From Mermis nigrescens (lineage: Eukaryota; Nematoda; Enoplea; Mermithida; Mermithidae): a DNA stretch of 64,000 nucleotides. The stretch covers positions 1 through 64,000 of the forward strand of contig JAVLUZ010000261.1 of NCBI GenBank assembly GCA_036768485.1, given 5' to 3'. Positions 6,723-63,290 of the stretch are shown piece after piece; position 1 is the stretch's first letter; each line of letters starts with the position of its first letter. The notes under the pieces were generated by a model. It was not told the DNA's origin and ran no database searches. It saw only the letters and a program-made list of their open reading frames with translations. A program made the translations under genes and the position numbers.

Positions 6723-7775
6723 TGTAACTGCGAGAGTTATACGGTGCGAACTCGTTCCATTAGTTCGCACAGGCCTTCGACAACAGCTTGGTATTGTATC
6801 GGTTAACATAGCCAATTGCGAGTTGACATCTGCGGATGGGTGAGCTCGTTGCTATGCCTTCCATTCTCATATAAATCCCTAATTTTTATTACAAAATCTT
6901 TTAGATACCTGTTCGGTAAAACAGAATTAAGTATATGATAATAGTAATTGTTTTACTTGATTACCGCTTGTCGTATTCTAGAAGCTTCGATTTGAATTAA
7001 AAGTTATTTTGTCTAATGTTAATTTGACTTAAACTTTCGTTTTACTGTATTGATCCCGTGATGGTATGTTAGTAGTTGAGTTTTGACGAAGTCGTCGTTT
7101 GTTTTATTTTATCGTTAGTGACTTTTGTTTTTGCTTTCCGGCATCCGCCGAGTGTACATATCTGAATAAAATATAAAACCAACCCAGGGGTTATCTATAC
7201 CGAGGGTGTGGAAGGCCGGCTATCCCTACGTCGAGGGTTTCTTTGATTTTGGTGGAGAGGAAAGATGAATATTTTTGATTGTGTATTTACTCAAAATTCA
7301 ATATTCTTTTATCAACCCGAAAATTAGCTAGAAATCTTATTTAATTATTTATGATGATTGATCAGCTTAGAGCTCGTTGGTGTTGTTTTCAAATTTCATT
7401 GTTCTACTTACATTAGGAACCAAAACATTTCGAATCAAGTGTAAACTTTGAAAACAAGTTAATTTATCAACTTGAGCAGGGATGAGATAGGTCAACTGAC
7501 CTCGCGGCACTTCCGGGGTTTAGGTAGGTACTCTATGATCTAGGGCGTAGCTGCTAAGACTCCCGACGAAAGCGCAGTCAGCAATATTAGGACTGAGGGA
7601 GTCGAAGCCGTAGGTCTACAAGGGTCCAGAAGATCGAAGTTGTTATTGACTACGCGATCGGGACCAGCGCTAAGAGCAGCTTAGGTACTTACGTAAGTAA
7701 ATCCCGAAGGCAAATGTCAGGCCGGTCCGTATCTGCGTCGACTTCGTAGGCGCAGTGCGAACCCCTACATTTACA
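6723..7775 (+). mobile_element. Solo LTR b, Gypsy-2 family, inverted relative to LTR a
   Basis: It runs from TGTAACTGCGAGAG to CATTTACA, giving TG...CA ends and ~1,053 bp, matching the LTR at 53694-54744 in the opposite orientation. The four bases ATAA flank both ends. The sequence before it (GAGCTGACAGGAAAGCAC) continues after it within a short tandem array, as expected for insertion into that array with a 4-bp duplication. No gag or pol sequence is attached. Confidence 0.75.
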
Positions 7776-8559: not shown

Positions 8560-9200
8560 TGGACGCTTACGTTCTACTGTAGTTGGTCAATCGTAGTAGA
8601 TCACAGCGGCGCTGCGTTTGCAATTTCCGTGACAAGAACTGTACATGGTTAGCATAATTTCTAGCGTTCTATTGAAGCGTTAAACTAAACCGTTCGTCTG
8701 CGGATGATATGCCGACGAGTTAATATGTCGAACTTTGCACAATTGACAGACTTGCTGAAATACTTCGGCCATAAATGGTTTTCCCTATCAGAGAGAATCT
8801 CTTTTGGCTCGCCGAAACGACTAATGATCCGATCCATTGATACTCGAGCGACTGTCTCTGCTCGGATGTCCGGAATGGCCGCAGCTTCGGCCCACTTAGT
8901 GAATTGGTCGATGAATATGATGTGTCGGTTGTCTCTGGGTGTAATAGGAAGGGGACCCATCGTGTCAACAACCCAGCAATCAAAAATTTGTCCAACCGGT
9001 ACAGGTTTCATGGGTTGGGCGTGAGAGCGTTGATTGTTTGGCTTCCGTCTTTGGCAAGGTAGGCACTGCTTGCAATATTCCCAGATGTCAGTTCGCATTC
9101 GTGGCCAGTGAAATCGTTCACGGACCTTATCGAGTGTTCTTGCAAAACTGAGGTGCTCAGCGAGAGCATCTTTGTGCATTGTGTCTAATTATTCTCGCAC
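8560..9200 (-). pseudogene. Gypsy-1 integrase, decayed
   Basis: The longest open stretch is 8685-9179. It contains the N-terminal HHCC zinc region (His residues in MHKDALAEHL and ERFHWPRM, then CKQCLPCQRRK) and the start of the DDE core, with Asp in VVDTMGP and Asp in ILSDR. Beyond about 8760 the frame changes, and the codon where the third catalytic residue is expected, after YHPQTNGLV, is a TAA stop at 8680-8682. Downstream sequence is decayed. It belongs to the minus-strand Gypsy-1 element whose RNase H, RT and protease follow at higher coordinates. This copy cannot make active integrase. Confidence 0.85.
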
Positions 9201-9414
9201 TCGTCGCCTAGGTACTGCCACTCTCGGTCTTTTTTTACGTCTGGAAGATATTTAAGTAAGCCGTTATCTAATATGTTATTCTCAGCTGCTTTTAGTTTTT
9301 CTGCATCTAAGCCATCTGTTTCACGGTCAGTCTAAAATAATCGATAAATTGGACCTAGGAATGTGTCCTTACGTTGCGCTAATGTCCAATCTCTTGCTAA
9401 ATCATTTGCTATAT

Positions 9415-9756
9415 TTATAACATTAATTTTTTTGAATTGGGCGGTCCATATTTCTCTCTAGGTACTGATAAACTTCGTAAGCCTTTGCGTTCCACTAATA
9501 CGTTTTGTAAGCATTTATGTTCTGCTGATGAGCTTCGTAAATATTTGTGTTCGGTTGATCTGTGTTTTACTGATTTTGTGCTTGGATCAACCGAGTCTAT
9601 TATTTTGCTAATCGCTTCTGGACTCATTGGTAACCGTGACAACGCGTCTGCATTTTCGTTTTCCTTGCCCCTTCGATATATAATTTTAAAATCATATTCC
9701 TGTAGGGAGATTACCCATCGAACCAAGCGTGGAGAGGCGACATCATGGATTTTAAG
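9415..9756 (-). pseudogene. Gypsy-1 RNase H, C-terminal part
   Basis: The frame reads through VRWVISLQEYDFKIIYRRGK and NADALSRLP, the typical end of a Ty3/Gypsy RNase H domain with its conserved Asp-Ala-Leu-Ser-Arg. It is separated from the N-terminal part (10661 onward) by the hAT-like element at 9757-10652. Removing that insertion and one target duplication makes the two pieces continuous through the [10 protein letters not shown] region. After the RNase H end the linker to integrase holds stops. Confidence 0.85.
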
Positions 9757-10652
9757 TAGAGCTGTGCCGGGGCCAGGCCCCGGCCCCGGCCCCGGCGCCG
9801 GGGCCTAGGCCCCGGCCCCGGGCCGGGGCCAGGCTGGCCCCGGCACCGGGGCCGGGGCCAATGTTAGAGTCGATTATAATGTAGAAACTAGATAATGTTT
9901 TGGGCAGATTTACCTTCAAACTCAATTTCAAGCAAACCACAGATCTTGCTAATTCAAATCTTTATTTCACTATGTCAGATTGGTGCAAACTTCTAGTTAA
10001 TAATCAAAATTGACATATTTTAAATTGCAATTCATATAGACGAGCATTTCCAGCTTGCTTGGTAGCAGACAGCTACGTCTATCAGAACAAATAGAATAAT
10101 AAGCCTAAAAAAGTGCAAAGTAAAGCACATTGAGGAACGCATCCAAGTCAGATGAGTTAAATCCATACATGGGCAGCTCAAAAATTCTAGAAGGTCCAAA
10201 ATTTTTCAAAGTCAAAAAGTGCCTGATAACATATGGTAGAGCGAAAAAAACACAGTTTTCTCGCGTTTCTCTGAGAGCTATCCATTAGCATCAAAAAACA
10301 GCAGAAAAACAGAAAAAATTCTTACTGAAAATTAAATTCTGGGGGGTCTAGCGGATTTTTTTTGGGGGGGAGAATAACAATTCTGGGGGTCTAGATCCCC
10401 CGATGCCCATGTTCTGTTATATCTTGTAATCCCAACAAATATTAACGCTTGACGTGCATATCTACAAGCAAGAATTTATGCATAGGTACATATAAGGGGT
10501 AGGGCAGGGTCGTACTATAAGCATGGTAAAGCACGCTATTATTGGCCCCGGCCAGGCCCCGGCCCCGGCCCCGGCCCCGGCCCCGGCACCGGGGCCTAGG
10601 CCCCGGCCCCGGCCCCGGCCCCGGCAAAAAAGGCGGCCCCGGCACAGCTCTA
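9757..10652. mobile_element. hAT-like non-autonomous element A with GGCCCC arrays
   Basis: The 896-bp element starts TAGAGCTGTGCCGGGGCC and ends with the exact reverse complement, an 18-bp perfect TIR. It is flanked by the 8-bp duplication ATTTTAAG (9749-9756 and 10653-10660). Just inside each end is an array of GGCCCC/GGGGCC hexamers (about 9766-9860 and 10545-10640). The middle is AT-rich and shows no transposase. TIR sequence and TSD length point to the hAT superfamily. It sits in the RNase H region of Gypsy-1. Confidence 0.92.
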
Positions 10653-10660
10653 ATTTTAAG

Positions 10661-11065
10661 TAGTCTTATTGGTGCGTGATCAGTCAGTAATGTAAATTTG
10701 TGTCCATAGATATACGGGCGGAATTGTTTTATTGCCCATACTATAGCCAGCGCCTCTTTCTCAATCGTAGAGTAGTTCGCTCAGCTTTCGTTAAAGTTCT
10801 TGATACAAATGCTATAGGTTTTTCTTGACCATCAGCAATATGAGCTAATACTCCTCCCACTCCGTATCCACTTGCATCAGTTTGTATTATGAATGCTTGC
10901 GTATAATCTGGAAATGCGAGAGTAGTCGCTGTTTCGAGATTATTTTTAATTTGCTTGAAGTTTTTGTCACATTCTCGAGTCCATTCAAACTTTTGACCTT
11001 TTCGTAATAGCTTGTTTAATGCTGCTGTTTTGGATGCAAAATCTCGAATAAATGCCGGTAATAAT
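10661..11065 (-). pseudogene. Gypsy-1 RNase H, N-terminal part and RT connection
   Basis: The minus strand encodes the connection region after RT (KGQKFEWTRECDKNFKQI), then the RNase H start with IIQTDASGYGVGGVL (first catalytic Asp) and a [17 protein letters not shown] helix (catalytic Glu). At least two frameshifts occur, one after LRLRKR and one near 11055. The RT end of this piece is cut by hAT-like element B. Confidence 0.85.
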
Positions 11066-13270
11066 TAGAGCTGCACTCGGGTACCCGAATGGGTACCCGA
11101 GTATCCGAGTACCCGGGTATACCCGGGTACCCGAATCCCCTGATATAAACTGGAAAATTTGCACTGCAGTTATGCAATATATATGTGCTAAGAATTGAAT
11201 TAGGAAGCTAGAAACATATTGTTTCTAAAGTGCGACTGAATCACAATGTAAATGTGATTTGATATAATCAACCGTAAAATGTTAAATAAGCGAGTCTGTT
11301 TATATTTCCTATTATTAAAATATATCGCGCATACGGTCTAGGCATATTCCATTATTCAGCTCTTTAGTTACATTATTTTATTTGTGCCTTTATTCTTCTT
11401 ATTCTTCCTTGCAAACAAATTTAAACAAGAAATTATCTGTTAGCGACGCTTTTTTATAATTCATTCACTTCTGTGACCATTATATAAATTTAAACTGCAA
11501 CTTTCATTCACATCGTGCGCGCAACTGTTTTAGTTAGACCTGGTTCAAAGCCTATCGATGTTCCAAATGCAGTCAGCCATAGGCGTAGCCAGGGGGCATT
11601 GGGGGTACCTGCCCCCCCGAAATTTTTCAGAAATATTGCTGATTTTTTTGTTGCAATAATGTATGTCCAGAAAACTAAGTTCAAAAAGGCAAAAGCTTCA
11701 AAATTTTCCGCGCCGAGTCATTATTTATTGCTATATAGATCCAACAAATTTAAAAGCTGATTCAGCTAAAATAATCCAGCACTCCACATCACTTTAGTAA
11801 TTTAATGCACTATTTGTTCGTTGAATGAAACTGCGCATGCTTGTTGAGCATGATAGTAAAAGTGCGAAAATGATTGTGAACCAGTTTGTCTATTCTCTGC
11901 TTTGTTTGTCTTTTGTGTACCAGTTTGTTTATTCTTTGCTTCGTTTATCTTTCTTTACAAGGACACATAATCCTATTTTAATTGGAAGGAATGGCCAGAT
12001 AATCTTATGTTTTTGCGCATTTCTTGTTCTATGAACTGCATTTTGTTAATTAGAAGGCCACAAATGGGCCTGAGAAGGGTAAGGACAAAATTTTCATGGA
12101 TACATCTTTCTATATCTTATTGGCAGCGACCCGTTGCTGCGCTATGTACTCAGCAGAGGTCGAAAAGCGCATTTCAGATCAGTTTGTGCAATGTAGGAAT
12201 TAATCAATTTTAAGTGTTTTTGGGCTTGATTCCGAACCGAGATTTGGCCGATTTTGCGAAAATTTTAACGTTACTATTCAACATTAAAACTTTCTTTTAC
12301 AAAATTTTCCGGGACTCTGCCCCGGATCCCGCTCGCCACCTCAGACGTCCCGCAGCCATTAAATCTCGTTGTACATGTGCAACGAGATTATAGGGAGAAC
12401 AAGCCAGGTAAAAGGATTAGGAATTTCTAAAAATTTCCGGCGTTTCGCGCCGGCATTAATTTGTCTGTTTTGTATGTTTTAAGCGGTATAAATTGAGTTT
12501 AATGTGCAAAAACGTCAAAATTTTCCGGCGCATAGCGCCGCCAGTTACTGTTCTTTCTTTTTGTAAAGCTCCAGCATTGCGTTAAAAGCCTGTATCACTC
12601 AGAATATCTTCAGTCAAAGGTAGTAATTCGCTGTTTTCTTCTTAGAAGCTTGAATTGTCAAAACTGTTTTGTACAAATTTGGTAATTTTCCGCTCTATCA
12701 GATTATTAGTATTCACAGAGCTACAAACTATTAAGGGTTGAAAAATGACTAAATTTCTTGGCACTTTGCGCCACTTATGAATTCCGAACTGTTTGTCAAT
12801 AGAAAGGCCGTAAATTCTACATGAAAACGTTTATGCCCCCCGAACCAAAATTCTGACTACGTCTCTGCAGTCAGCTCCAGATAGACTTTGACTTGTTTTT
12901 GAATAAATTTTCATTTCCGGTTGATTTCAAAATTGCTTTTCGTCAATGTGTTTTCCTGCTTCAAATGTTTAAATGACGCTGTGAAGATACAAAACCTGCT
13001 TCACAATTTTTTGCTTTGAATTATGAAAATGACTTAAATTTAATTAAATGCATACGAATTCTTCAGATTAAAGCCTTAATTCAATTTAATCTTGCATTAA
13101 TTTTTCAATAATTTTACTGCTTAAATATCACTTTGCCCTAGACCTCACTGTCAACCGTAAATAAACGAAGTTCACTGCATTCTCTTTTATCTAAGGTCCT
13201 ACCCGGGTATACCCGGGTAATGAAATAGCCAGGTACCCGGGTAGTAAAATTTGCAAAGTGTGCAACTCTA
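11066..13270. mobile_element. hAT-like element B with GGGTACCC arrays
   Basis: Ends are TAGAGCTGCAC and, inverted, TAGAGTTGCAC. An 8-bp duplication GTAATAAT flanks it (11058-11065 and 13271-13278). Inside the left end (11080-11140) and right end (13199-13250) lie arrays built from the palindromic words GGGTACCCG and CCCGGGTA. The 2,205-bp element has no transposase ORF and carries a second hAT-like element at 11578-12867. It interrupts the Gypsy-1 frame directly after the LGLVNYY motif. Confidence 0.92.
11578..12867. mobile_element. hAT-like element B2, nested inside element B
   Basis: The left end CATAGGCGTAGCCAG and inverted right end CAGAGACGTAGTCAG match at 12 of 15 positions. The 8-bp duplication CAGTCAGC is present at 11570-11577 and 12868-12875. 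Runs of G or C follow the TIRs. Inside are several short GC-rich hairpins (TTCCGGCGTTTCGCGCCGG near 12437, TTCCGGCGCATAGCGCCG near 12522). Short ORFs show no transposase motif. Confidence 0.85.
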
Positions 13271-13278
13271 GTAATAAT

Positions 13279-14060
13279 TAACTAAGCCTAGGAAGCTTTT
13301 AAGCTCAGTAACCGATGTTGGTCTTGACATCTTTTCTATAGCAGCCACTTCTGATGGGTTGACTTTTAGCCCATTTTGATCGATTATATGTCCTAAATAA
13401 TTAACTTCCGGCAATGCAAACTCGCACTTTTTCAGCTTGAGTGTTAGTCCAGCTTCTTTTAATCGATTAAAGACATTTTGTAGGTCTTCTAGGTGGAATG
13501 GTAGGTCTTTCCCACAAATGAGTATATCATCTAGGTAAACGGAGCATTTTTTCCAATTTAAGTTATGTAACACTCGTTCCATTGTTCGTTGGAATGTGGC
13601 TGGGCCGTTGAACAGGCTAACTGTTAAAAGCTGTTTTTGGTTAATCTGTTTCAATTAATTCTATCTGATGGTACCCCTGTTCGAGGTCGAGTGTTGTGAA
13701 AATTTTAGCTCCTTTTAATTGTCCGAAAATATCGTCGATTCTTGGTAATGGGTATGCGTCTTTTGTTGTGAGTTCATTTAATTTTCTGTATTCAAAGCAG
13801 AAACGCTTAGTCCCATCTTTTTTGTCAGCTAAAACGATTGGTGAACTACATGGACTTTTTGAGGGACGTATGATTCCATCGTTTAGCATACGGTTAATAT
13901 GTTCTTCAACGACTTGGCGTTTAGCAAATGGTAATCCGTAGGGTGGTTGAGAAACGGGTCTATGATTTCCTGTATCGATTCCATGTTTAATTATTTTTGT
14001 TCGTCCTAAGGCGCATCCGATTCCAAAAATTTCGCGATTTTCGGTCAAAACTGATATTAA
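13279..14060 (-). pseudogene. Gypsy-1 reverse transcriptase, frameshifted
   Basis: Two overlapping frames (13641-14048 and 13268-13654) together cover most of a Ty3/Gypsy RT. The first has the N-terminal fingers (MLNDGIIRPSKSPCSSPIVL), the LRKLNELT-like motif and TTLDLEQGYHQIEL with the first catalytic Asp. The second has FNGPATFQRTMERVL, the active site VYLDDILI with both Asp present, and LGHIIDQNGLKVNP. The frames do not join cleanly near 13650, where a few residues are missing, so the copy is broken. It continues toward RNase H beyond hAT-like element B. Confidence 0.9.
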
Positions 14061-14225
14061 TGATTTTTGACCTTCTGGCGATAATATATGCTGTAATTTC
14101 TCACTTATTTCTTTTTAAAATTCTTTTTCTGCTGATATATTTTCTGCTTCTATCTGAGTTTGATGCTTATTTTTCGCCACTTTAACCAGAGTTGCGATTT
14201 TCCTGTTTGCATAAACCGTCACTGG

Positions 14226-14465
14226 TTAATTGGTCACATTAACAATTGGTATCTGACTCATAAGATTGCTTTTTGTTATTTTTAGCCGATAGCTTGGTAT
14301 ATAAAGTGAATTAGAGCGGCGAAATTTGTCATATGCACTTATATTTATCCAGGAATCAGAATCGTAAACAATGGCATTTTTGTATGAAACATTCGCTAGA
14401 CATATGGATGTAGGAGGTATTTTGACTGTGTCTCTCATCAGAGCAGTCGCGTGAATTTCCTCCAT
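14226..14465 (-). pseudogene. Gypsy-1 protease-RT linker fragment
   Basis: This open stretch lies between the protease and RT frames of Gypsy-1. It contains CLANVSYKNAIVYDSDSWI and reads like the spacer that follows the protease in Ty3/Gypsy polyproteins. The assignment rests on position, not on a motif. Sequence to 14049 continues in other frames toward RT. Confidence 0.45.
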
Positions 14466-14553
14466 CTCATCATTAAAGTCATTTTGAAGCGATTTTTCAT
14501 ATTGAAATTGTGCACGTATTTCTTCTTTTCTTTGTAAATGAGCTAGTTCTTGA

Positions 14554-15314
14554 TTAACTAGCTGTGGATTGTTTTTTCAATTTTTTTCTTTGTTGACATG
14601 CTACTTCCGCTAAAACGTGTTCATGATGCTGTAAGTAAGACTTGAGTTCATTGCGCTTGAGAAAATGAACAATAGCATCATCAAATGAAATTAAACGATT
14701 TTCCATGTCAATTAAAATGCACGGTCTGCTTTCACATATTTTTAGCATGCCATCCCACCCCAAAATGAGTGGGTGAGGGCAGCATTTCATCACATAGGAT
14801 AAAATCGGAAAAATCTTTCCGTTTATGATAAAATTTTCAATAACTGCTCCTTCCACTCGCATAGCATGACTCGTAATTCCGAGTATTTGAATATTTTCAT
14901 CATATGGTAGCTGTTTTGGCATTTTGCGATAGCCATCATTAATTTTGCAGCACCTGTGTCAATTAAAGTTTCATATTTGAGTCCATAATCTAAGGTTAGC
15001 CATACTATTGGGTCTGAATTAAGCTTAGAATTAGTGTGATGGGCGTAATAAATTGGATGACGAACTCGTAAGTCAATAGGTCGATCTTCTCTATTTCTGG
15101 GGTTGTGCATAGCCGTACCTGAGTTGCGACGTGGCATATGTTGTCTTTGTCGCGTGGAACATATCGCCACTAGGCAACGACATAAGACAGCGACCAAGCC
15201 GCAAGACCACTCAAAAGCTAGACAACAAATCCCATATCGAAGCCCAAAATAGGTCGCAAGTATAACGATGATAAGAATAACGATCCAAAAAACTGCGCTC
15301 GTTAAGCTGTCCAT
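14554..15314 (-). pseudogene. Gypsy-1 protease region with hydrophobic leader
   Basis: Two frames (14823-15314 and 14554-14922) make up this part. The upstream frame begins with a hydrophobic segment (VFWIVILIIVILATYFGL), then a basic region and the aspartic protease motif TLIDTGAAK. The downstream frame continues with the flap-like region and PLILGWDGML, typical of Gypsy proteases. A frameshift separates them near 14920. No gag with zinc knuckles is seen before TSR1 starts at 15697, so the element is truncated at its 5' end. The hydrophobic leader is unusual for this position and may come from flanking sequence. Confidence 0.75.
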
Positions 15315-15696
15315 AAATCCTTCTGTTAGAGATGAGAATATGAGAATAAGTGCGCTCCACCCTGTGCTAATCCGCTAACTGACTGTCGCATTTGATATAT
15401 TGATAAGCCGTTGATATCTTCAATGCCGTCACGCAGACTGTACCTGTAGATGTTCTGTGAAAGTGATTTTGCTTTTCGTCCCTTTTCCACTTCATTCTCA
15501 TCAAGTTAGTCTCAACTTTTCCATTTTCCCAAAGATTGTCTCAATTTCTGAACAAAAATATTAAGCCTTTTGATTTATTATTTTTTATCCACTTTGCTGT
15601 AATCTTTCCACATATTAGAAAGTCAGTCGGCTTCCATTATTTGTCTTATATTAATTATAAACAAATCGCTATCAGTCTTAACGCCAAATTGCCTGA
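15315..15696 (+). promoter_or_regulatory. Probable TSR1 5' flank and promoter
   Basis: This 382-bp gap lies between the truncated Gypsy-1 and the TSR1 start codon. It holds two arthropod-type initiator words, TCAGTC at 15623-15628 and 15672-15677, the second only ~20 bp before the ATG. No clear TATA box is placed 25-30 bp ahead of either. The assignment is by position and weak motifs only. Confidence 0.35.
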
Positions 15697-50994: not shown

Positions 50995-51450
50995 GTGTCC
51001 CAACAGCCCTACCAGTCCCAACAGCCCCACTGTCCCAACAGCCCACCATCCCAACAGCCCCACCAAAAAATCCCAACAGCCCCACCTATAAATCCCAACA
51101 GCCCCACCCATCCCAACAGCCCCACCAGTCACAACAGCCCACCGTCCCAATAGCCCCACCAATAATTCTAACAGCCACACCAATCCCAACAGCCCCACCA
51201 ATAATTCCAACAGCCACACCAATCCCAACAGCCCCACCAATCCCAACAGCCCCACCAATCCCAACAGCCCCACCAATCCCAACAGCCGTACAAATCCCAA
51301 CAGTCCCACCGTCCCACCAACCCCACCGTTCCAACAGCCCCACCGTCTTAACAGCCCCACCAATAATCTCAACAGCCCCACCAGTCTCAGGAACCCCACC
51401 TATTCCCAGGTTGATCCACCGTTTCAGCAGTCCTACGGTTCCAACAGTCG
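50995..51450. repeat. 18-bp minisatellite, CCCAACAGCCCCACCAAT
   Basis: About 25 copies of the 18-bp unit and shortened forms. ORFs across it (Pro/Thr-rich on one strand, Gly/Leu-rich on the other) reflect the repeat. Confidence 0.93.
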
Positions 51451-52119: not shown

Positions 52120-52380
52120 GTAATGGTGAGGCTGCTGGGATTACTGGTGGGGCTGCTGGGACGGTGGGGCTGTTGGAACGGTAGGGCTTTTGGGATTGGT
52201 GGGGCTGTTAGGATTGGTGGGGCTGTTGGGATTGGTGGGGCTGTTAGGATTTGTGGGGCTGTAGGGATTGGTGGGGCTGTTGGGATTGGTGGGGCTGTTG
52301 TGATTATTGGTGGGGCTGTTGGAACGGTGGGACTGTTGGGACGGTGGGGCTGTTGGGACTAGTGAGGCTGTTGAGACATC
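52120..52380. repeat. Same 18-bp minisatellite, inverted
   Basis: About 13 copies of GGGGCTGTTGGGATTGGT, the reverse complement of the array at 50995-51450. Outside the two arrays are inverted words TGCATGGATTGTGTC (50985) and TGCATGGGTGATGTC (read inverted from 52388), so the pair may be the ends of a nested element. Confidence 0.9.
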
Positions 52381-53693: not shown

Positions 53694-54744
53694 TGTAAAT
53701 ACAAAGGGTGCCCTATGTATGTATACGGAATCAACATAGGACACGGATGTATTTGCCTTCGAGAGTTACTTAGGTACGTAGGTACTTAAGTCTACGCTTA
53801 GCGCTGGCCCCGATCGCGCAGCCTGGGATCGCTTTGGATGTTTGGACCCTTGCAGACCCTACGGCTTTGATCCCCTCAGCCCTAATATTGCTGGCTGCTT
53901 CTGGTCGGGTGATCTCAGCAGCTACGCCCTAAGACCTAAGGCTACTTACCTAATCTCGGAATTTGCCGCGGAGGTCAGTTGACCTATCTCAAAGCTCAAG
54001 TTGAATATTTAACTTCTTTTCAAGGTTCGATTCTAACATAAATGTTTTTGGTTCCTAATACGTGTAGCACAATAGACTATGAAAACAACAACAATGAGCT
54101 CTACACTGATCAATCATCCTTAAAGATTAGATAATATTTTTGATCAATTTTTGGTTTAAGAAAAGATTTAAGACTTTCGAATAAAAGTAGCAATCACACG
54201 GAAATTACCTATCCTTCCACTCAGATGAGCTGAAATCCTCGACGTGGGCAATTATCGACCTAACCCTCGGTATATCCAAAAACCCCTGGGTAGGTTTTTC
54301 TTCAATTTATTCCAAACGCAGAATACACGGCCTATAGCCGGACACAAAATAAAGCAAAAGAAGAACGAAAACGTACGGACTATATACACGTACGGTGGCC
54401 AACCAGACTGCCAACAACACTAACTACATTGGCCTCAAGAGACCATTACAGTTAAATAAACAAAGTTCAAATTAACGTAATACTGATACACTTTTATCTC
54501 AGATCGAATGTTATCGATTACACAAGCGGTATGCATGAAACAGTTACTATTATCATACACTTAACTCCATGTTGATGGACAAGTATCTAAATCTTTTTTA
54601 TTATTGAAAATTGGGGAAAAAGTGGGAAGACCGAAGGCATAGCCCACAGTACACTATCGTAGATAGCTACTAGTATTGGCTATGTGATGTCTACCGCGAA
54701 CTGCTAAGGCAAGTTCGCCTATACGTGTAACTCTCGCAGTTACA
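53694..54744 (-). repeat. 3' LTR of Gypsy-2
   Basis: On the minus strand it starts TGTAACTGCGAGAGTTACAC at 54744 and ends with TTTACA at 53694, giving TG...CA ends and ~1,051 bp. Two homologues at 4928-5989 and 6723-7775 confirm the limits. In the plus direction it contains CTTAGCGCTGGCCCC near 53797 and AAGCTCAAGTTGAATATTTA near 53993. Confidence 0.88.
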
Positions 54745-55538: not shown

Positions 55539-57041
55539 TTAATAGTGATCCTGATAATTGGCCTTCAAGCCACGTGGTTTTCTGCAACGTCGTTGACGTT
55601 GAAAATAGTCACGATCCGATTCAGGTTCGCGACGCATATTCAAACGCTTGCGATACTGGTATGGCGAGTGCCTACGCCCGTACATATGTTGGCGTAAGCG
55701 TTGATGTGGATTGACGGGTCGATCATCGTCTTCCTCTTCATCGTCGTCCTCATAGTCGTCTGCGTAATGACGCGGTATAGATTGCACCGGAGTGAATAAT
55801 TGCTCCGGAGTAAAACCAAATGTTTGTTCACGTGAAGATTCGCATGGACGCTGTTGTGATTGCGTAACAGGCCACGGTTTAGGCAATAGTGGACCTGGTC
55901 GAGGTTGTGGTTGATAGACCCCGGTGGCTGATTGATCTTGCTCCAATGGTGAACGATACGATTGGTCCCATTGTTGCCGTTGACAGGATTGCGACCAGCC
56001 CTGATGAGTTTTGCGGTTTGACTGTGGCGGACGGCGATATTCATAAGGCTGCTGCTGTTGCGGGCGCAACAGATGACCAGCATCGGCCTGTGAATATGCC
56101 TCGGAACGCTGATGCGATTCCGTAAATTGCTGTTGCCGCCGTTGGGTCTGCGGTCGTGTATGTGTCTGTATGTGTGGTTTTACTGGTGCCTGTGATTGTA
56201 CTTGTGATTGTGAGTGATGATGCATTTGAGCATATTGTTGCCGGGATGACTGCGGTTCTTCCCGCTTAGATCCTCTTTGGCTTGAACGTGCTCTTAATTT
56301 AGCTGCGACTTCAGCTTGAACAAGTCTTCTGACTCGTTGCTTTTCCAAATTCTTTAACCGACGCAGGGTATGCTCGGATTTCGTATCATAAAATCGATTC
56401 AATTTAGCCTTATGCTCGTCTTCCAACATATGTCGAACATCTGAGGTTTTGGCGAGAGAACTGGCGGCACATAATTTTGTCGCACGCCTTTTCATCTCTG
56501 AAGCAAGATTTTCACAATTGCGTTGTTCGATCGTCATGCGTGCTCGACGCATTTCAATTTGTGCCTCCAGAGATAGATTGACTTCGGGCATATCAAGGCT
56601 TGCTGAGGATCTACTTGGGTCCTGCAAGGATGCCTACCGTCTCTCTTTTTGAATTTTCTCTAACTCACCTTGAATTTGGTGTTTAAGGTAAAACACAGAT
56701 TTTTGGCGACCTCGGAAACGGTCAAATTGAACCGGAACTTCAAGTGGCGGATCAGTTGCTAAGCGAATTTGACGAATCATGTTATGTAAAATGGATGGAT
56801 TTTCGATTCGCCTCGTTAACTCCGGGAATTCCGGGAAGGCCTCTCTTGGCGAAGGTGTGTAAGATTTTCCAAGGAAAGCTACGCGCAACATACAACGTAG
56901 CTGCTCCACCATGCGCCAGCCTATTGCGGCATTGCCGTAGGCATACGCATAAAAGTGGAACTTTCTGTCCAAAAATTCCAAAAGCACTCTAGCGCGCATG
57001 ACGTCTATTGTTGAGAAGATCGTCATGAGTCGATACTCCAA
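55539..57041 (-). pseudogene. Gypsy-2 ORF3, C-terminal helical and Gln-rich part
   Basis: Two open stretches (56634-57041 and 55539-56627) share one frame and are separated by a single TAG at about 56634. The first (VLLEFLDRKFHFYAYAYGN, VPVQFDRFRGRQKS) has no known domain. The second begins with a charged helical region (LRRLKNLEKQRVRRLVQAEV) that could form a coiled coil. A Gln/His/Pro-rich segment follows, then an acidic run (YEDDDEEEDDD) and a basic tail. There is no transmembrane segment, so this is not an envelope protein. The composition suggests a nucleic-acid- or protein-binding region. Function unknown. Confidence 0.6.
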
Positions 57042-57699
57042 ATCGTATAACGATTGAAATCTCGGAAGGTATCAAAAATACGGACCATTTGACGCATTGA
57101 TATTAAGATCGGAGATAAATGATCTGGCGCCGGTGACATTCTGTGCGGTAAAAATTCTGGAAGAATCTGGTGCGCAATGCCATCAGTCACCACACTCGGT
57201 GCGTCAAGGTGTGGGTGCACTACCAGATAGTGTAAAGGAACTTCGTACAGCATCATTCCGGTTGTAATGAAAAAGCGGGTGCGCACAAAAATTGGTCAGG
57301 GTAAAATAATTGGTTAAAAACGCTTATTTTGCTGATAAATCGAGGTGCCGGCGCACAATCAACATCAGCCAAAGGTTGTGCAATTGTAGACCAATCTAAA
57401 GGACGCGAGGGTGTGTCAGTTGTAGCCGCGTAATGCAGATGTGCTGCGTACACCCGGTCAAAGTGCACTTGGGCACACTCGACCAACTGGTCATACAGAC
57501 GCATTCCTGCAACTTCACCCAGATAAGAGCATAACTCGTGCAATACGTCAGGCGCGATATAGCACGGTGCTTCACGCGTCATGGTTTCCATCATGTTGAA
57601 AAAATGTTGCACATAACGCAAGCATGGCCATAGGAGCCGTGAAACAAGTAGTAGGTGCCACTGAACTCGACATGCCTTGTGGCGCGGATTGGGACGCAA
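57023..57699 (-). pseudogene. Gypsy-2 ORF3, middle part, frameshifted
   Basis: Two frames (57253-57699 and 57023-57286) continue the reading region. They contain PDVLHELCSYLGEVAGMRLY and YEVPLHYLVVHPHLDAPSVV. A shift near 57280 and another near 57040 connect them to their neighbours. The sequence looks like a folded, mostly helical protein. No family is recognised. Confidence 0.5.
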
Positions 57700-58177
57700 T
57701 TTGCATGGACAACACTGCTTGCTGTACTTCCTGTGCGGGTAGTGAGCATTGTGGTAGCGGTGGGAAGCCTATAATTTCTGTCATGATAACGTCTGGTTCA
57801 GGTTGACGCTCTACCCAATCCGGCTGAGAAGTCGGTAAAGGTAGGAGCGAACTGAAGCCCAAGGGTGCCTGCTTGTCCGCCGCAAGCGATTGTGAAACAA
57901 TCAGTTGCGAAACGGTAGTAGCCCCTTTTTGAGCCATTGCCGCGTGTGTGGTACGCGGTGGCGACAAGTTTGCTTGCCTTTCCGATTCAGCATCGGATAA
58001 CGCCATGACTAAATGTTTAGGAGACAAATCGTTGTCCTCTGTAGAGATAGATTGTTCTATTCCAACCATAGGAGAATCGTAAGGAATATCAGTTTGCAAA
58101 GAAATCGCAGATGCTGGGGTACTTGAGCTGGTTGGTTTGGACTTAGGTTCGGTGTCAGGCGCATGAACCGGGCCCAA
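57572..58177 (-). pseudogene. Gypsy-2 ORF3, Pro/Ser-rich linker
   Basis: A 201-codon stretch rich in Ser, Pro, Thr and Ala (KPTSSSTPASAISLQTD, then many Gln). It lies in the same frame as the segment before it (58196-59089), separated by one TAG near 58196. It is probably a disordered linker between the exonuclease-like domain and the helical part. Confidence 0.55.
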
Positions 58178-58195
58178 AACTGAGTCGGCAATTGC

Positions 58196-59543
58196 CTACG
58201 ATCCCTGAACTTTTAGATCAGGATTATTGAAAACATTAGTATGAGCCAACGCTTCCGTTACAGAGGCAACGGTGGTGGCTGCGGCTATGGCCGCTGGTGT
58301 TTGTGGAGCTGGTCCGTAAAAGTCCTCTACTGTGACTAATTCTCCGCCATCAGAATCAATGGAGACATCAGTTGCCGTGCTGGTCGACTGGCCCCGTGAT
58401 GGCTTGCGAGACGACAATGGTATACGCCGTCTGGTTTTCAGTTCGCTAGCTTTAACGTGCAATTTGTCGCCTTTAAACGAAATTGGCATAGGTTTTCTAT
58501 CGTCGGTAATGCAATTATTTTGCGAGCAGCCTTCTATCAATATGAAAACATCGATAGTAATCAGGGCATCCATCGCTAAATAATGTTGCATATCCCGAGT
58601 TAGTGGTAAGCTCCACGCCTGACCAAAATTATCAGGCGCGTTTGGATCAATAGCCATGTCAAAGAAAAATTCAGCCAAGCGCTTTAAGGTGTGTGAATGC
58701 GCTGTAATATGGAGACGGTGAGTGAACAATCTCGCCAAAGGCTGTATAGTTATCAATAAAATTCGCACTAAACGGATCTTTCCAATGCCGTTGATTTCGA
58801 ATCTTGGCATCAGGAATTGCCAAAATTTCTTCGAAAGTTGGGCCGTAAACATGAGAATATGCAAGTCTGTCTTGCGTGGGGTCGTAACAGACCATATATA
58901 CGTTCGGTAGACGCGTTTTGAGCAGCTGATGAAGCCCAAACGGAGGTTTTGGGAACTTAGCAATGTTTCAGCAGAACACATGACTGTTTGCGCTAGCAAC
59001 TTGGACATAGCGAATGAATGGGCCATGGAGGTCCTGATAGGTGGGACATAGCTGCTTAAAACGCAAATCTCAGCGGCCTTTTTGGTCATTCACAAATTCC
59101 GAATCGTAGCCCAAAAATAACATGCCATTGGTCATGTTTGATGGCTGAATCAAAGCCAAAATAGCTCCAAAAGACTCCTGGTCATTGGTGATCAAAACAG
59201 TGGATAGAAGTCTCTTCTTTGGCACATGAAGGGTAGCCAAAGGGAATCTATCAAACCTGTTCTCCCACCAGAGCTCTTGGTCATTTATACGTTTACTGTG
59301 ATTTGTGGCTACATGTGATGTTTTATGCTCTATCATTTTTGCGGTAAGTGCCTCTAGACCGCCAACACGACTCATCATTTTGTGGCACAGCGGGTCTGGT
59401 AGAACCAACCCCCGCTCCAAAGCCATATTTGTCAAAGCCAAACAAAACTCATCTAGGGACACGGGATTGCGCCCCTCAAATTTGAATCGGCGACCAGCTG
59501 CTTCCAGCAATGCCTCCTTGCTTGGAGTACCTTCAGCAGCCAT
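58196..59543 (-). pseudogene. Gypsy-2 ORF3, DEDDy 3'-5' exonuclease-like domain
   Basis: From the ATG at 59543 one frame runs to 58671 with two internal TGA codons (near 59070 and 58960), then shifts and continues in the frame of 58196-59089. Motif I is MLFLGYDSEF, with the Asp-x-Glu pair. A strand-rich part follows (IRYVQVASANSHVF), then MVCYDPTQDRL, a candidate motif II. Motif III is WSLPLTRDMQHYLAMDA, with the Tyr and Asp of the DEDDy type, as in RNase D, WRN and Nibbler-like nucleases. The ~60 residues before motif I and the basic Ser-rich tail are unassigned. It lies downstream of integrase, where some Gypsy elements carry env. Stops and a frameshift make this copy inactive. Similarity is judged by motif pattern only. 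Confidence 0.72.
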
Positions 59544-60763
59544 GGGTCTGCAAAAGGGAAAACATTAGCTAATGGTACGGCATGTGCTGTTTTAGAGACA
59601 TTCAATAAACGTATAAGCGCACAGTCCTTAGCTTTTTGCTCCCTGCCCGGTAATTCCTCAAAACTTATTACTACTGCCGGAGCTAGAGGGCAATGTGGTA
59701 ATTTTACCAACACAAAATCGCCAGGGATATACACATGTTTTTCGACAATTAAATCTGAGTAGGGTAGTTTGGGCTCAGGCAGAAGTCTATTCCGGTGAAC
59801 GAGATGAGTGATTAGAGGATTATAGACATATGCAATTTTCGCAGTTTCAGGAGTAGGTAAATCAATAATTCTATATGGTCCAACACGTTTAGGTGATAGT
59901 TTACCGATTTCAGGTTGAATTACTGAGGTATTATTAAGGTAAACTATATCCGAGAGAGAAAAATTTGTTTGAGTTACGGATTTGTCATATTGAGATTTTT
60001 GTTGCTTACGCGCTTGAGCTAGATTTTTAGATGCGATTCCGTGTAGATCTTGTAAAGTCAGCTTTAAGTCAATAACATATTTTTCTGCAACAGATGGTAA
60101 ATTTGGATTCATTACAAAGTGATTTATGAGAAGAGTGTCAAAGGGAAATGCTGGTTCGCGACCATAAAGCATTTCAAAAGGAGATATATTAGTTGATGAT
60201 TGCGGAGTCGCGCGGTATGCGAATAACACGAAAGGTAGAAATTGCTCCCAATCATACTGGGAACGCGCGCTCAGCTTAGACAAACCATCAATCAAAGTGC
60301 GATTATAACGTTCCATTAACCCATCACACTGGGGATGATATGGGGTTGTAAATATTTTTTGAACGTTTAGTAGTTTACAAACTTCTGAAATTAGGGTAGA
60401 TGTAAAGTTTGAACCCTGATCTGTCAAAAATTTCTTGGGAACACCATAACGTGGGATAATTTCTCGAAATAACAAATTTGCAATTGTTGTTGCTTTTATG
60501 TCAGAAACAGCAAAAGCTTCCACATATTTGGTAAAATAATCCATAAAAACAACAATTTGGTCATTTCCGGAGGGAGATCGCGGCATATGCAAATAATCAC
60601 ACGCAATGAGTTCAAAAGGTGCGGATACTTTGATTGGTTGCAATGGAATGGATGTGGAATTTAATGCGACCTTACGTTGTAAGCACACATCACAATTCCT
60701 ACACCACGCGATCACATCATTTTCCATGCGCGGCCACCAATAATGCATTTGTATGGCGGGCAA
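59453..60763 (-). pseudogene. Gypsy-2 integrase
   Basis: The 436-codon open stretch includes the Cys pair of the zinc region (NCDVCLQRK), with its His residues partly upstream across a TGA stop near 60788. The DDE core carries Asp in LIACDYLHMP, Asp in FLTDQGSNFT and Glu in GLMERYNRTL, all present. The C-terminal GPY-type module is LSPKRVGPYRIID with HRNRLLPEP. This is the least damaged domain of the copy. It overlaps the start of ORF3 by ~90 nt in another frame. The catalytic triad looks intact, but the upstream stop and broken RT make a working polyprotein impossible. Confidence 0.93.
59548..59566 (-). promoter_or_regulatory. Candidate splice acceptor before ORF3
   Basis: The minus strand reads TTTTCCCTTTTGCAG|ACCC immediately before the ORF3 ATGG, a strong pyrimidine tract and CAG. 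In errantiviruses the env ORF is made from a spliced mRNA whose acceptor lies just before env. The same arrangement is inferred here. The donor would lie at higher coordinates or outside the window. Confidence 0.6.
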
Positions 60764-60787
60764 GATTTTGCGCGATGAAAAATGAGC

Positions 60788-61681
60788 TCAGAAAATAGAG
60801 TCATGAAATTCGGTTAATATAAAGCGACACAAAGATTTGGGTATGACTATTTGATGTACGACAGTTGGTGAACGTTTAGGTTGGAATCTGCGAAAAAGTA
60901 CATCGTTCATGAGAAAAAATTCGTCACGATATTTTTTCGTTGTTAAGTCATTTAATGCAATGCGAATTTTATGTAATTCGTCATCTGCACGTTGCTCAGC
61001 GAGTAAACGCGCAGGTGTTAGCATTTCAGCTTTTTCAGCATCAGTAAGTAACAGGCGTTCACAAAATGTAGGTGGTTTTGTATTGGTAGGATCGATTTGC
61101 GCAGTAGGATTATTATTTTGCGCATTTGGATGATTAATTGGTGCAGTAGGCGCATGATCGCGCGATCGGTCAGGTGGAACCGATTCATCATCTGACTGAA
61201 AATCTTCCGATTCTAAATTTGCGATGTTAACAACATTTTTGCGCTCCAATTTATATTTTCGTTCTGCATGATCGTATTCAGGGTGTCGTGAAAGAAGATC
61301 AGCTGCGCAGTTATATGCACCAGGAACGTAAACAATATCATATTCGTATTCTTGTACTTTGAGACCCCAACGGCGTAAACGACTCAATGGGTCTTTAATG
61401 TTTACTAGCCAAGTTAATGCTTGATGATCAGTTTCGACAATGAATTTTTTACCGTAAAGATAATGTCGATAATGCTTGATGGCCCACACTACCGCTAATG
61501 CTTCTTTTTCTGAAGTAGCATAGTTACATTTGGCAGAATTTAGCACGCGACTAGCGTAGCTAAGAATAAAACGATTTTTGGATGGTAAGTGTTTTTGTGT
61601 CAAAATAGCACCTAACGCATAATTACTGGTGTCAGTTGTTAAAATGAATTGGTGCTCATCATCGAATTTTGGTAGTTGCAA
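60788..61681 (-). pseudogene. Gypsy-2 RNase H and integrase N-terminus
   Basis: RNase H motifs appear in order: FILTTDTSNYALGAIL (Asp), TSEKEALAVVWAIKHYRHYL (Glu), VETDHQALTWL (Asp) and AADLLSRHP. A linker rich in Asn, Pro and Thr follows, then LTEFHDSIF, the start of the integrase zinc region, which is interrupted by TGA. It joins RT upstream through a one-base frameshift near 61815. Confidence 0.92.
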
Positions 61682-61707
61682 AATAGGTGGGAAAGTAAAT
61701 GCTTTCT

Positions 61708-62577
61708 TCAGAAGCTCAAAGGCGGTTTGGTGTTCAGCCTTCCAGCAAAATTCGACATCTTTACGAAGAAGATGGAATAACGGTTTAGTGATTTTGGCAA
61801 GATCTTTAACGAATTTTTAAACCATTGGACTAAGCCAAGGAATTTCTGCAAGGATTTAACGGTTTTTGGTATGGGAAACGAGAGTAAATCTGCGAATTTG
61901 GACATATCAGGAGCGATGCCCATTGCACTTATGCAGTGGCCAAGAAATTTTACCTCTGCATGCGCAAGATGGCATTTATCAGGCTTTACACGTAAGTTTG
62001 CTTTTTTAAGAGCAATAAAGACATTCTCAAGATCTTTTAAATGTTCTTTGAAAGTGCGCAAAAAAATAATTATGTCATTGATGTAAACGAGACAAGATTT
62101 CCAATTTAGGCCTGCGAGCATGAGCTCCATTAGCCTTTGGAAATCTGCGGGCGCATTTTTTAGGCCAAAAGGTAAAACTTCATTTTCGTAATGACCAACA
62201 GGGCATATAAAAGCAGTTTTTTTGCGAGATTTATTATCTAGTGGAATTTGCCAGTAACCAGATTTTAAATCTAATGTGCTAAAATATGCAGCATTGCCTA
62301 AGGTATCGAAATAATTGTCTAATTGTGGAAGAGGATAAACTTGTGTTTTAGTAACGTCATTTAACCATTGATAATCAACGACCGGCCTAAGGGAACCGTC
62401 CTTTTTCCCAATGAGAAATAATGGACTTGCCCATGGGCTAGTTGTAGGTCGAATAATTTTATCCGCAAGCATTTCATTTATAATTTTCTGCATGGATTCT
62501 CTTCTAGAATGCTCAACACGATAAGTTTTTCCAACAACGGGCGGATTATCCCCTGTGTCAATATGATGTTTCATCAA
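61708..62577 (-). pseudogene. Gypsy-2 reverse transcriptase
   Basis: Fingers and palm are recognisable: DKIIRPTTSPWASPLFLIGK, FSTLDLKSGYWQIPL (first catalytic Asp), PFGLKNAPADFQRLMELML and LGHCISAMGIAPD. The active site that normally reads Tyr-x-Asp-Asp reads YINDI (near 62077), so one catalytic Asp is Asn. A one-base loss in an A-run near 61815 shifts the frame before the connection domain. The upstream join to the protease region is also frameshifted, near 62650. Confidence 0.93.
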
Positions 62578-62627
62578 GGGGGTACGTCCGAGAGGTTCGT
62601 TTTTTAATGCAAAAATTGAGTCGTGTT

Positions 62628-63290
62628 TTAAACATAGTTCACGAATTTGTCAAAAGATGAAACATGCGACACAACTTCGGCATCAGAAGTTAAAGAACCT
62701 ATTATTTCACCAGAGTCGATGCGAATTGGCGCTCTAGAGATGTTACAAACGCGAACAGGTATTAGAGGTTGTGAAGCATCGACTATAGACGGAGCAACAA
62801 AAAGTGAGGTTTTTTCCATAAAATCTGGATTTGGTTCGAATAATGCAAAATCAAAATTGCAAGAACCGTGACTTATATAGCCAGGTGTAATTAATTCATG
62901 CCTAGGTTGTATAATAACAGGCTCAGGTAAGAAACATGCACACACACAACACCAGAGGTAGTTGTGTTGGGTTTCACGCAAAATTTCAATTTTTCATGAG
63001 ATGAGAGTAAATTAATCTTTATGCCGTTTATAAAAGCACAGCGCTCAATAGGATTAACCCAAATGAGTGCGGATTCACAAAAATCATATCCTAAGAGCAT
63101 GTCTTCCAGCAAGTGATGAATTATAGATACTGAGGTAGAAATAGATTGTTCCACAATGGTTAAAGTCATATTTACTTTATACCGAACTACAGCGGTGATT
63201 TCGCCTACACCATGTACAACTTGTGAGACTTGTTTAGGTGGTAAATTAAACTCAAGACGTTAGAATGCAGATGTGGTCATCATGGTGACC
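62628..63290 (-). pseudogene. Gypsy-2 protease and following spacer
   Basis: After the protease motif (see gag-pro entry) the frame continues over a TAA near 63260 through VSQVVHGVGEITAVV and LLEDMLLGYDFCESALIWVN, the usual protease C-terminal strand. A shift near 62950 leads into 62628-62981 (HELITPGYISHGSC, EVVSHVSSFDKF), which bridges to RT. Confidence 0.8.

Follow-up and report, generated by a model that had tools for sequence, protein, structure and literature searches.

A multi-copy Ty3/Gypsy element whose third gene probably encodes a divergent DEDDy-type 3′–5′ exonuclease-like domain

Introduction

Long terminal repeat (LTR) retrotransposons carrying an exonuclease gene behind pol have been described in bdelloid rotifers, where the elements Juno1/2 and Vesta2/5 encode RNase D-like DEDDy proteins in a third open reading frame, ORF3 (Rodriguez, Kenefick and Arkhipova 2017, PMC5408684). 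These ORF3s were acquired at least twice and are shared with Athena elements, and a role in RNA 3′-end processing or silencing has been discussed (PMC5408684). In a later article, which cites the 2017 bdelloid paper among others, a DnaQ-like exonuclease domain is termed a well-known accessory of such elements (PMC6338049). Here, we analyse Gypsy-2, a Ty3/Gypsy element on the minus strand of contig JAVLUZ010000261.1 (assembly GCA_036768485.1), positions 1 to 64,000; this stretch of 64,000 nucleotides is referred to as the window. A preliminary description of the window took env or nothing to be normal in the position between integrase and the 3′ LTR, a view at odds with the bdelloid DEDDy ORF3s published in 2017 (PMC5408684). 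We conclude, with a probability of about 0.8, that Gypsy-2 is a multi-copy Ty3/Gypsy element whose third gene encodes a divergent DEDDy-type 3′–5′ exonuclease-like domain, which we infer to be expressed from spliced RNA and to be active.

Gypsy-2 resembles Juno and Vesta in that a DEDDy 3′–5′ exonuclease ORF follows pol and that more than one lineage per genome carries such an ORF (PMC5408684). Juno and Vesta have a dUTPase between protease and reverse transcriptase, whereas no dUTPase family was found in Gypsy-2 at an expectation value (E) of up to 10 in three frames covering 63802-62628, a result to be read with caution as the window copy is decayed. Their LTRs measure 159-551 bp, against about 1050 in Gypsy-2, and their motif has changed to DEED, whilst Gypsy-2 has DEDD; the two are likened by description, not by sequence. 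Lastly, Juno and Vesta have a bdelloid host, and the genome that carries Gypsy-2 has nematode-type telomere repeats. In this genome (the window's own, 524 Mb in 860 contigs, which was the genome searched throughout), exact matches to (TTAGGC)4 number 4904 in reverse and 12 in forward orientation, with 0 for the backwards control; on one contig, an array begins at base 2. As nematode telomeres are built of TTAGGC, a nematode host is likely.

Two other systems invite comparison. Athena and Terminon elements also bear a DEDDy exonuclease, the role of which is not established, but belong to a different retroelement class that is Penelope-like and endonuclease-deficient (PMC5408684; PMC6431247). 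The CERV protein of Cer1, a Ty3/Gypsy element of Caenorhabditis elegans, is likewise a non-env extra Gypsy protein; it is made from spliced RNA, and its host may belong to the same phylum as that of Gypsy-2. For CERV, however, no obvious homology is reported outside nematodes, the word 'exonuclease' is absent from the main text, and the likeness is again one of description (PMC10309623). In word-matched full-text searches, which covered a minority of subscription papers and no preprints, no Gypsy element from outside the rotifers turned up with a DEDDy ORF3. DEDDy ORF3s in LTR elements are, then, already known from bdelloid rotifers (PMC5408684), and what is new here is a different host, the length of ORF3 (some 1000 residues more), a measurement of the purifying selection on it, and the finding that related integrases bear PWWP domains.

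Results

Pfam scanning placed reverse transcriptase, RNase H and integrase of Gypsy-2 in this order, as expected of a Ty3/Gypsy element, and ORF3 comes next (Table 1). The three DEDDy motifs follow one another in order between integrase and LTR, all on the minus strand and inside the interval 58196 to 59543, as the preliminary description had it. Two corrections apply. Motifs I and II share a frame that holds two in-frame TGA stops, and motif III lies in another. The region was also said to end at 58196, which is merely a stop codon, as ORF3 continues to 55539. In all, the window copy is broken by in-frame stops at 59072-59070, 58970-58968, 58198-58196 and 56636-56634, and by frame changes. 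The ORF3 ATG, at 59543, lies inside the end of the integrase frame. In a codon-usage scan trained on pol, the best-scoring frame tracks the ORF3 pieces down to 55539, with many scores below zero because ORF3 codon use differs from that of pol. The protein begins with some 130 residues, followed by the exonuclease-like domain at approximately residues 130-345 and then by about 1000 residues with a Q-rich, charged end.

Other copies of the element provide the open frames that the window copy lacks. At the DNA level, the exonuclease region has at least 41 matches including the window, with 40 of 654 first-look candidates scored; they are 88-100% identical, and most of them cover the 1369 bases completely or almost so. 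A protein query yielded at least 108 matches, 84-100% identical over 377-380 of 380 residues, among the best-ranked 108 of 2700 candidates; 105 of the 108 contain no stop, a share that is not a census, and 25 of the 108 matches lie in an open frame of at least 1373 amino acids. The exonuclease region is family-wide in Gypsy-2, and the separate insertion considered in the preliminary description is not what the other copies show. We fetched 39 stretches (37 distinct), one of which, on contig C411, repeats the window copy. ORF3 is wholly open in 2 of these 39, and its first 400 codons are open in 16. Three of the five catalytic positions, E149, D229 and Y324, are kept in 39/39 copies, and all five are kept in each of the 16 copies open over 400 codons. 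The candidate motif II proposed earlier, VCYDPTQDRL, has thereby held up, with D229 present in every copy. As a separate observation, D to N is the only type of change seen at the five catalytic positions, for which decay and an inactive subfamily are both conceivable. The locus on C411 (271381-272749; L002, L010) is 100% identical to window positions 58196-59564 over the exonuclease region, and may be an uncollapsed haplotype contig or a duplication.

The DEDDy-type ORF3 is clearly under purifying selection. Across the 16 copies open over 400 codons (15 of them distinct), the mean ratio of nonsynonymous to synonymous substitution rates (dN/dS) comes to 0.118 in residues 131-370, to 0.225 in residues 1-130 and to 0.289 in residues 346-400, the first and last of these ranges overlapping. 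This bears out the expectation, put forward with the motifs, of a dN/dS below 1 in intact copies. One pair of copies is open along the full 1385 codons; its uncorrected ratio is 0.125 and does not exceed 0.33 in any stretch of 100 codons.

The link to cellular exonucleases runs through sister lineages in the same genome. PF01612 has 22 matches there, all above the cut-off and 19 in open frames of 285-547 residues, with the Gypsy-2 copies not among them. All six of the 19 ORFs that were inspected sit downstream of an integrase frame (three of these frames Pfam-scanned, the others recognised by eye), and they split into lineage A (L049, L050, L053) and lineage B (L051, L052, L054). Five of five sister-lineage ORF3s that were scanned pass the PF01612 cut-off, at 1.2e-6 to 3e-10. 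Gypsy-2 ORF3 matches these proteins both in BLASTP (E 1e-10 against one member of B, 2e-9 against one of A) and in hhalign (95.5% and 94.1% for the two lineages, against at most 1.8% for 20 column-shuffled versions). Compared directly with cellular DEDDy domains by hhalign, lineage A reaches 97.6% and lineage B 97.9%. A joint alignment of seven sequences, six of them from A or B, matched PDB entries for WRN exonuclease (1.9e-12), Egalitarian (2.7e-8), NrnC (4.4e-7), EXD2 (6.3e-6) and MUT-7 (2.5e-5). Motif II and III residues are invariant in all seven sequences of the three lineages, and the motif II Asp falls in the same column as that of WRN and RNase D. The exonuclease-family match anticipated in the preliminary description was thus obtained by way of the sisters: Gypsy-2 ORF3 would be placed near the PF01612 family, not as a Pfam member, because the sister ORF3s pass the cut-off and Gypsy-2 matches them.

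Motifs I–III, their order and the profile matches are what Gypsy-2 shares with domains of the WRN, Egalitarian, EXD2 and MUT-7 type. In contrast to cellular DEDDy domains, all three retroelement lineages have additional residues that separate motif I from the conserved strand that follows, and in hhalign the retroelement ORF3s match one another better than they match the cellular domains. When a protein database was searched with the integrase, 66 relatives came out at E up to 1e-5. In the integrase tree, Gypsy-2 groups with P0001, P0002 and P0003 and next with lineage B (0.98), apart from A. Broadly in line with this, an unrooted exonuclease tree of 16 sequences, with moderate support, separates B and Gypsy-2 from A and the cellular proteins (0.84). 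As lineage A lies on the cellular side of this unrooted tree, a single retroelement clade is not proven; nor does the tree give a date for a possible capture from the host, the origin suggested in the preliminary description. Further PF01612 matches, at C728:217089-219569 and C147:10885-11184, have short open frames and best E values of 3.1e-12 and 3.1e-6; they may be exons of host DEDDy genes.

The window alone carries a fainter trace of the same relationship. When the 1549 open frames of the window were compared with a profile built from seven cellular DEDDy domains, the motif-III frame came first with 8.8 bits, the next, unrelated frame reaching 7.1; 10 residue shuffles gave no more than 5.6, and reversed frames no more than 5.3. 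In pairwise comparison, the motif-III piece is set apart by its scores with three of the seven domains, namely EXD2 (z 6.4, in an ungapped alignment of 59 residues), BAD_0989 (z 5.8) and WRN (z 3.9), but not by those with the other four (z -1.0 to 1.6). The window pieces with motifs I and II were not significant with the seven-domain profile: piece C ranked 83rd at 0.0 bits, and A and B gave no match. These two motifs, suggestive in the window sequence, become convincing only through the other copies and lineages. NCBIfam gave weak unrelated matches to one of seven pieces only, and of three single window pieces searched against the PDB, one had two chance matches and the remaining two had no match.

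A number of results weigh against an exonuclease. Gypsy-2 ORF3 never reaches the PF01612 cut-off, scoring 11.6-12.3 bits against the required 23.6 (E 0.15 for the motif-III piece of the window, and 0.24), and three whole or nearly whole Gypsy-2 ORF3s have no PF01612 match. The direct hhalign comparison of Gypsy-2 with cellular DEDDy domains gives 43.4%. Neither the motif-III frame nor the N-terminal piece found a relative in protein databases, where candidates were confined to proteins of similar length, and single-sequence fold predictions of two pieces of the broken window copy were uninformative (predicted local distance difference test, pLDDT, 43 and 40). At the catalytic positions, D147 is D in 34/39 copies and N in 5/39, and D328 is D in 37/39 and N in 2/39, whilst motif I is not intact in two of the six copies of other lineages, L051 having K for Glu and L054 Y for Asp. 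Lastly, the dN/dS sample consists of 16 of 39 copies that were picked for openness, some of them closely related.

A strong splice-acceptor-like tract lies just upstream of ORF3 (Table 1). By a simple score made for this analysis, it comes first among the 476 AG sites of the element strand and 7th among the 6233 of both window strands. The string TGTTTTCCCTTTTGCAGACCCATG is present in 37/39 copies, in one of them shifted by one base; in one of the two remaining copies the site is changed, and the other fails to align at this point.

The integrase C-terminus of Gypsy-2 resembles a PWWP domain, below the PF00855 cut-off both in the window and in another copy (E 0.022). Above the cut-off, a C-terminal PWWP is found in lineage B (L051, 1.2e-12; L052, 1.6e-10) and in the database relatives P0002 (3.7e-10) and P0001 (6.9e-7); the lineage A integrase L049 has no PF00855 match. 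Chromoviruses carry a chromodomain, and by analogy the integrase PWWP would be a built-in chromatin reader. At the level of literature-search listings, we found no PWWP-bearing retrotransposon integrase.

Discussion

The rotifer study did not settle whether an enzymatic ORF3 is of any help to its element, and its variation test on cloned ORFs, which was near neutral, covered the env-like and GDSL ORF3s and not the DEDDy ones (PMC5408684). In the genome analysed here, a DEDDy ORF3 is under purifying selection, and no fewer than three Gypsy lineages have such an ORF. Both findings argue for a gene that is useful to the element. The conserved catalytic residues and the low dN/dS further argue for an enzyme acting on the 3′ ends of RNA or single-stranded DNA. 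In the model that we favour, ORF3 would be translated, like retroviral env, from a subgenomic RNA produced by splicing, and the enzyme would be active and trim such ends during the element life cycle. The likeliest targets would be the ends of the element's own RNA or complementary DNA, or host small-RNA precursors.

The position after pol and the splice-acceptor-like site are also what would be seen if ORF3 were an env-like membrane protein with incidental motifs. The top 19-residue hydropathy of one open ORF3, 1.68, is near the threshold for a membrane span, usually about 1.6, and the lineage A ORF3 L053 reaches 2.06. Yet the 1.68 peak is motif III itself (by hydropathy alone, the maximum outside residues 130-345 is 1.31), the L053 peak also falls within the exonuclease domain, and the protein is homologous to exonucleases, which leaves an env-like protein hardly credible. 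That the motifs are an artefact of spotting patterns in a decayed stretch, or that the region is a separate insertion, would fit the broken window copy, the Pfam match below cut-off and the two window pieces without a homologue. Family-wide presence, purifying selection and homology across lineages speak against both and make them extremely improbable. We rejected chance motifs, a separate insertion and an env-like protein.

A rather unlikely alternative, though one to be taken seriously, is that ORF3 has a nuclease fold that, by analogy with Egalitarian, EXD1 and Maelstrom, would only bind RNA and would serve as an adaptor for export or packaging of element RNA, as CERV might suggest. Egalitarian, an RNA adaptor, is among the closest solved relatives (2.7e-8). 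The long additional C-terminal part has Q-rich and charged stretches that would suit such a role, as would the D-to-N changes at D147 (5/39) and D328 (2/39). Maelstrom and EXD1 have been termed catalytically inactive RNA binders (PMC5408684), and the Cer1 report describes CERV as a non-env product of a spliced RNA that is needed for export of genomic RNA (PMC10309623). A binder, however, need not keep the catalytic residues, and in Gypsy-2 all five are kept in 16/16 open copies, with motifs II and III invariant in 7/7 sequences. We prefer an active exonuclease for ORF3.

Should the host be a nematode, to which its telomere repeat points, the question of what a retroelement exonuclease does would move beside one of the best-studied RNA-silencing systems of animals. 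Nematode secondary small interfering RNA (siRNA) amplification depends on 3′ ends, for example RNA tails or small-RNA 3′ ends, and MUT-7 is a host DEDDy enzyme. It is conceivable, if doubtful, that the element exonuclease is a counter-silencing tool which would trim or compete for the 3′ ends feeding secondary siRNA amplification, mimicking or blocking MUT-7, and which would act alongside the PWWP-like chromatin-targeting module of the integrase. If true, targeting and counter-silencing would each have a module of its own in these elements.

Other features of the window

Table 1. Gypsy-2 features in the window, in the order of the element (minus strand; positions counted from the first base of the window)
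Feature	Position	Strand	Remarks
Reverse transcriptase	61708..62649	-	PF00078 7.6e-33
RNase H part of pol	60788..61816	-	PF17917 1e-33
Integrase end of pol	59453..60787	-	Pfam rve 6e-12, H2C2 1.4e-11; directly upstream of ORF3
PWWP-like stretch, integrase C-terminus	59549..59722	-	PF00855 E 0.046, below cut-off
Splice-acceptor-like tract TAATGTTTTCCCTTTTGCAG	59548..59567	-	Ends 4 bases before ORF3 ATG
Gypsy-2 ORF3, env position, broken copy	55539..59543	-	1385 codons in two naturally open copies
Motif I YDSEF (D147, E149)	59094..59108	-	
Motif II VCYDPTQDRL (D229)	58863..58892	-	
Motif III PLTRDMQHYLAMDA (Y324, D328)	58565..58606	-	Tyr-x3-Asp
In-frame TAG	58196..58198	-	Same frame reopens, on to 57572
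Purine tract GGGGGAG	54751-54745	-	Immediately precedes 3′ LTR
3′ LTR	53694..54744	-	Two related LTR copies in the window; end taken as the last TTTACA, approximate

Downstream of ORF3, about 800 untranslated bases and the short purine tract lead to the 3′ LTR, which begins at 54744. This LTR was recognised because of two related copies near the start of the window, at 5997-4930 and at 6851-7715 (the latter partial), on opposite strands. The 5′ end of Gypsy-2 lies outside the window, and the 3′ LTR is the only one of the window copy that was identified. G+C content is 46-48% in ORF3 and 38-39% in pol. No ORF3-like sequence was found in window positions 1-55000; scans of the window with Rfam (at the gathering threshold) and for tRNAs were empty, and viral-contig scans found nothing.

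A second, distinct and more decayed Gypsy element occupies 8685-15374 on the minus strand, with GC-rich repeats inside it at approximately 9754-9870 and 10533-10655. An inverted pair of CCCAACAGCCCCACC-type minisatellite arrays lies at 51166-51344 and 52146-52324, with 801 bases between them.
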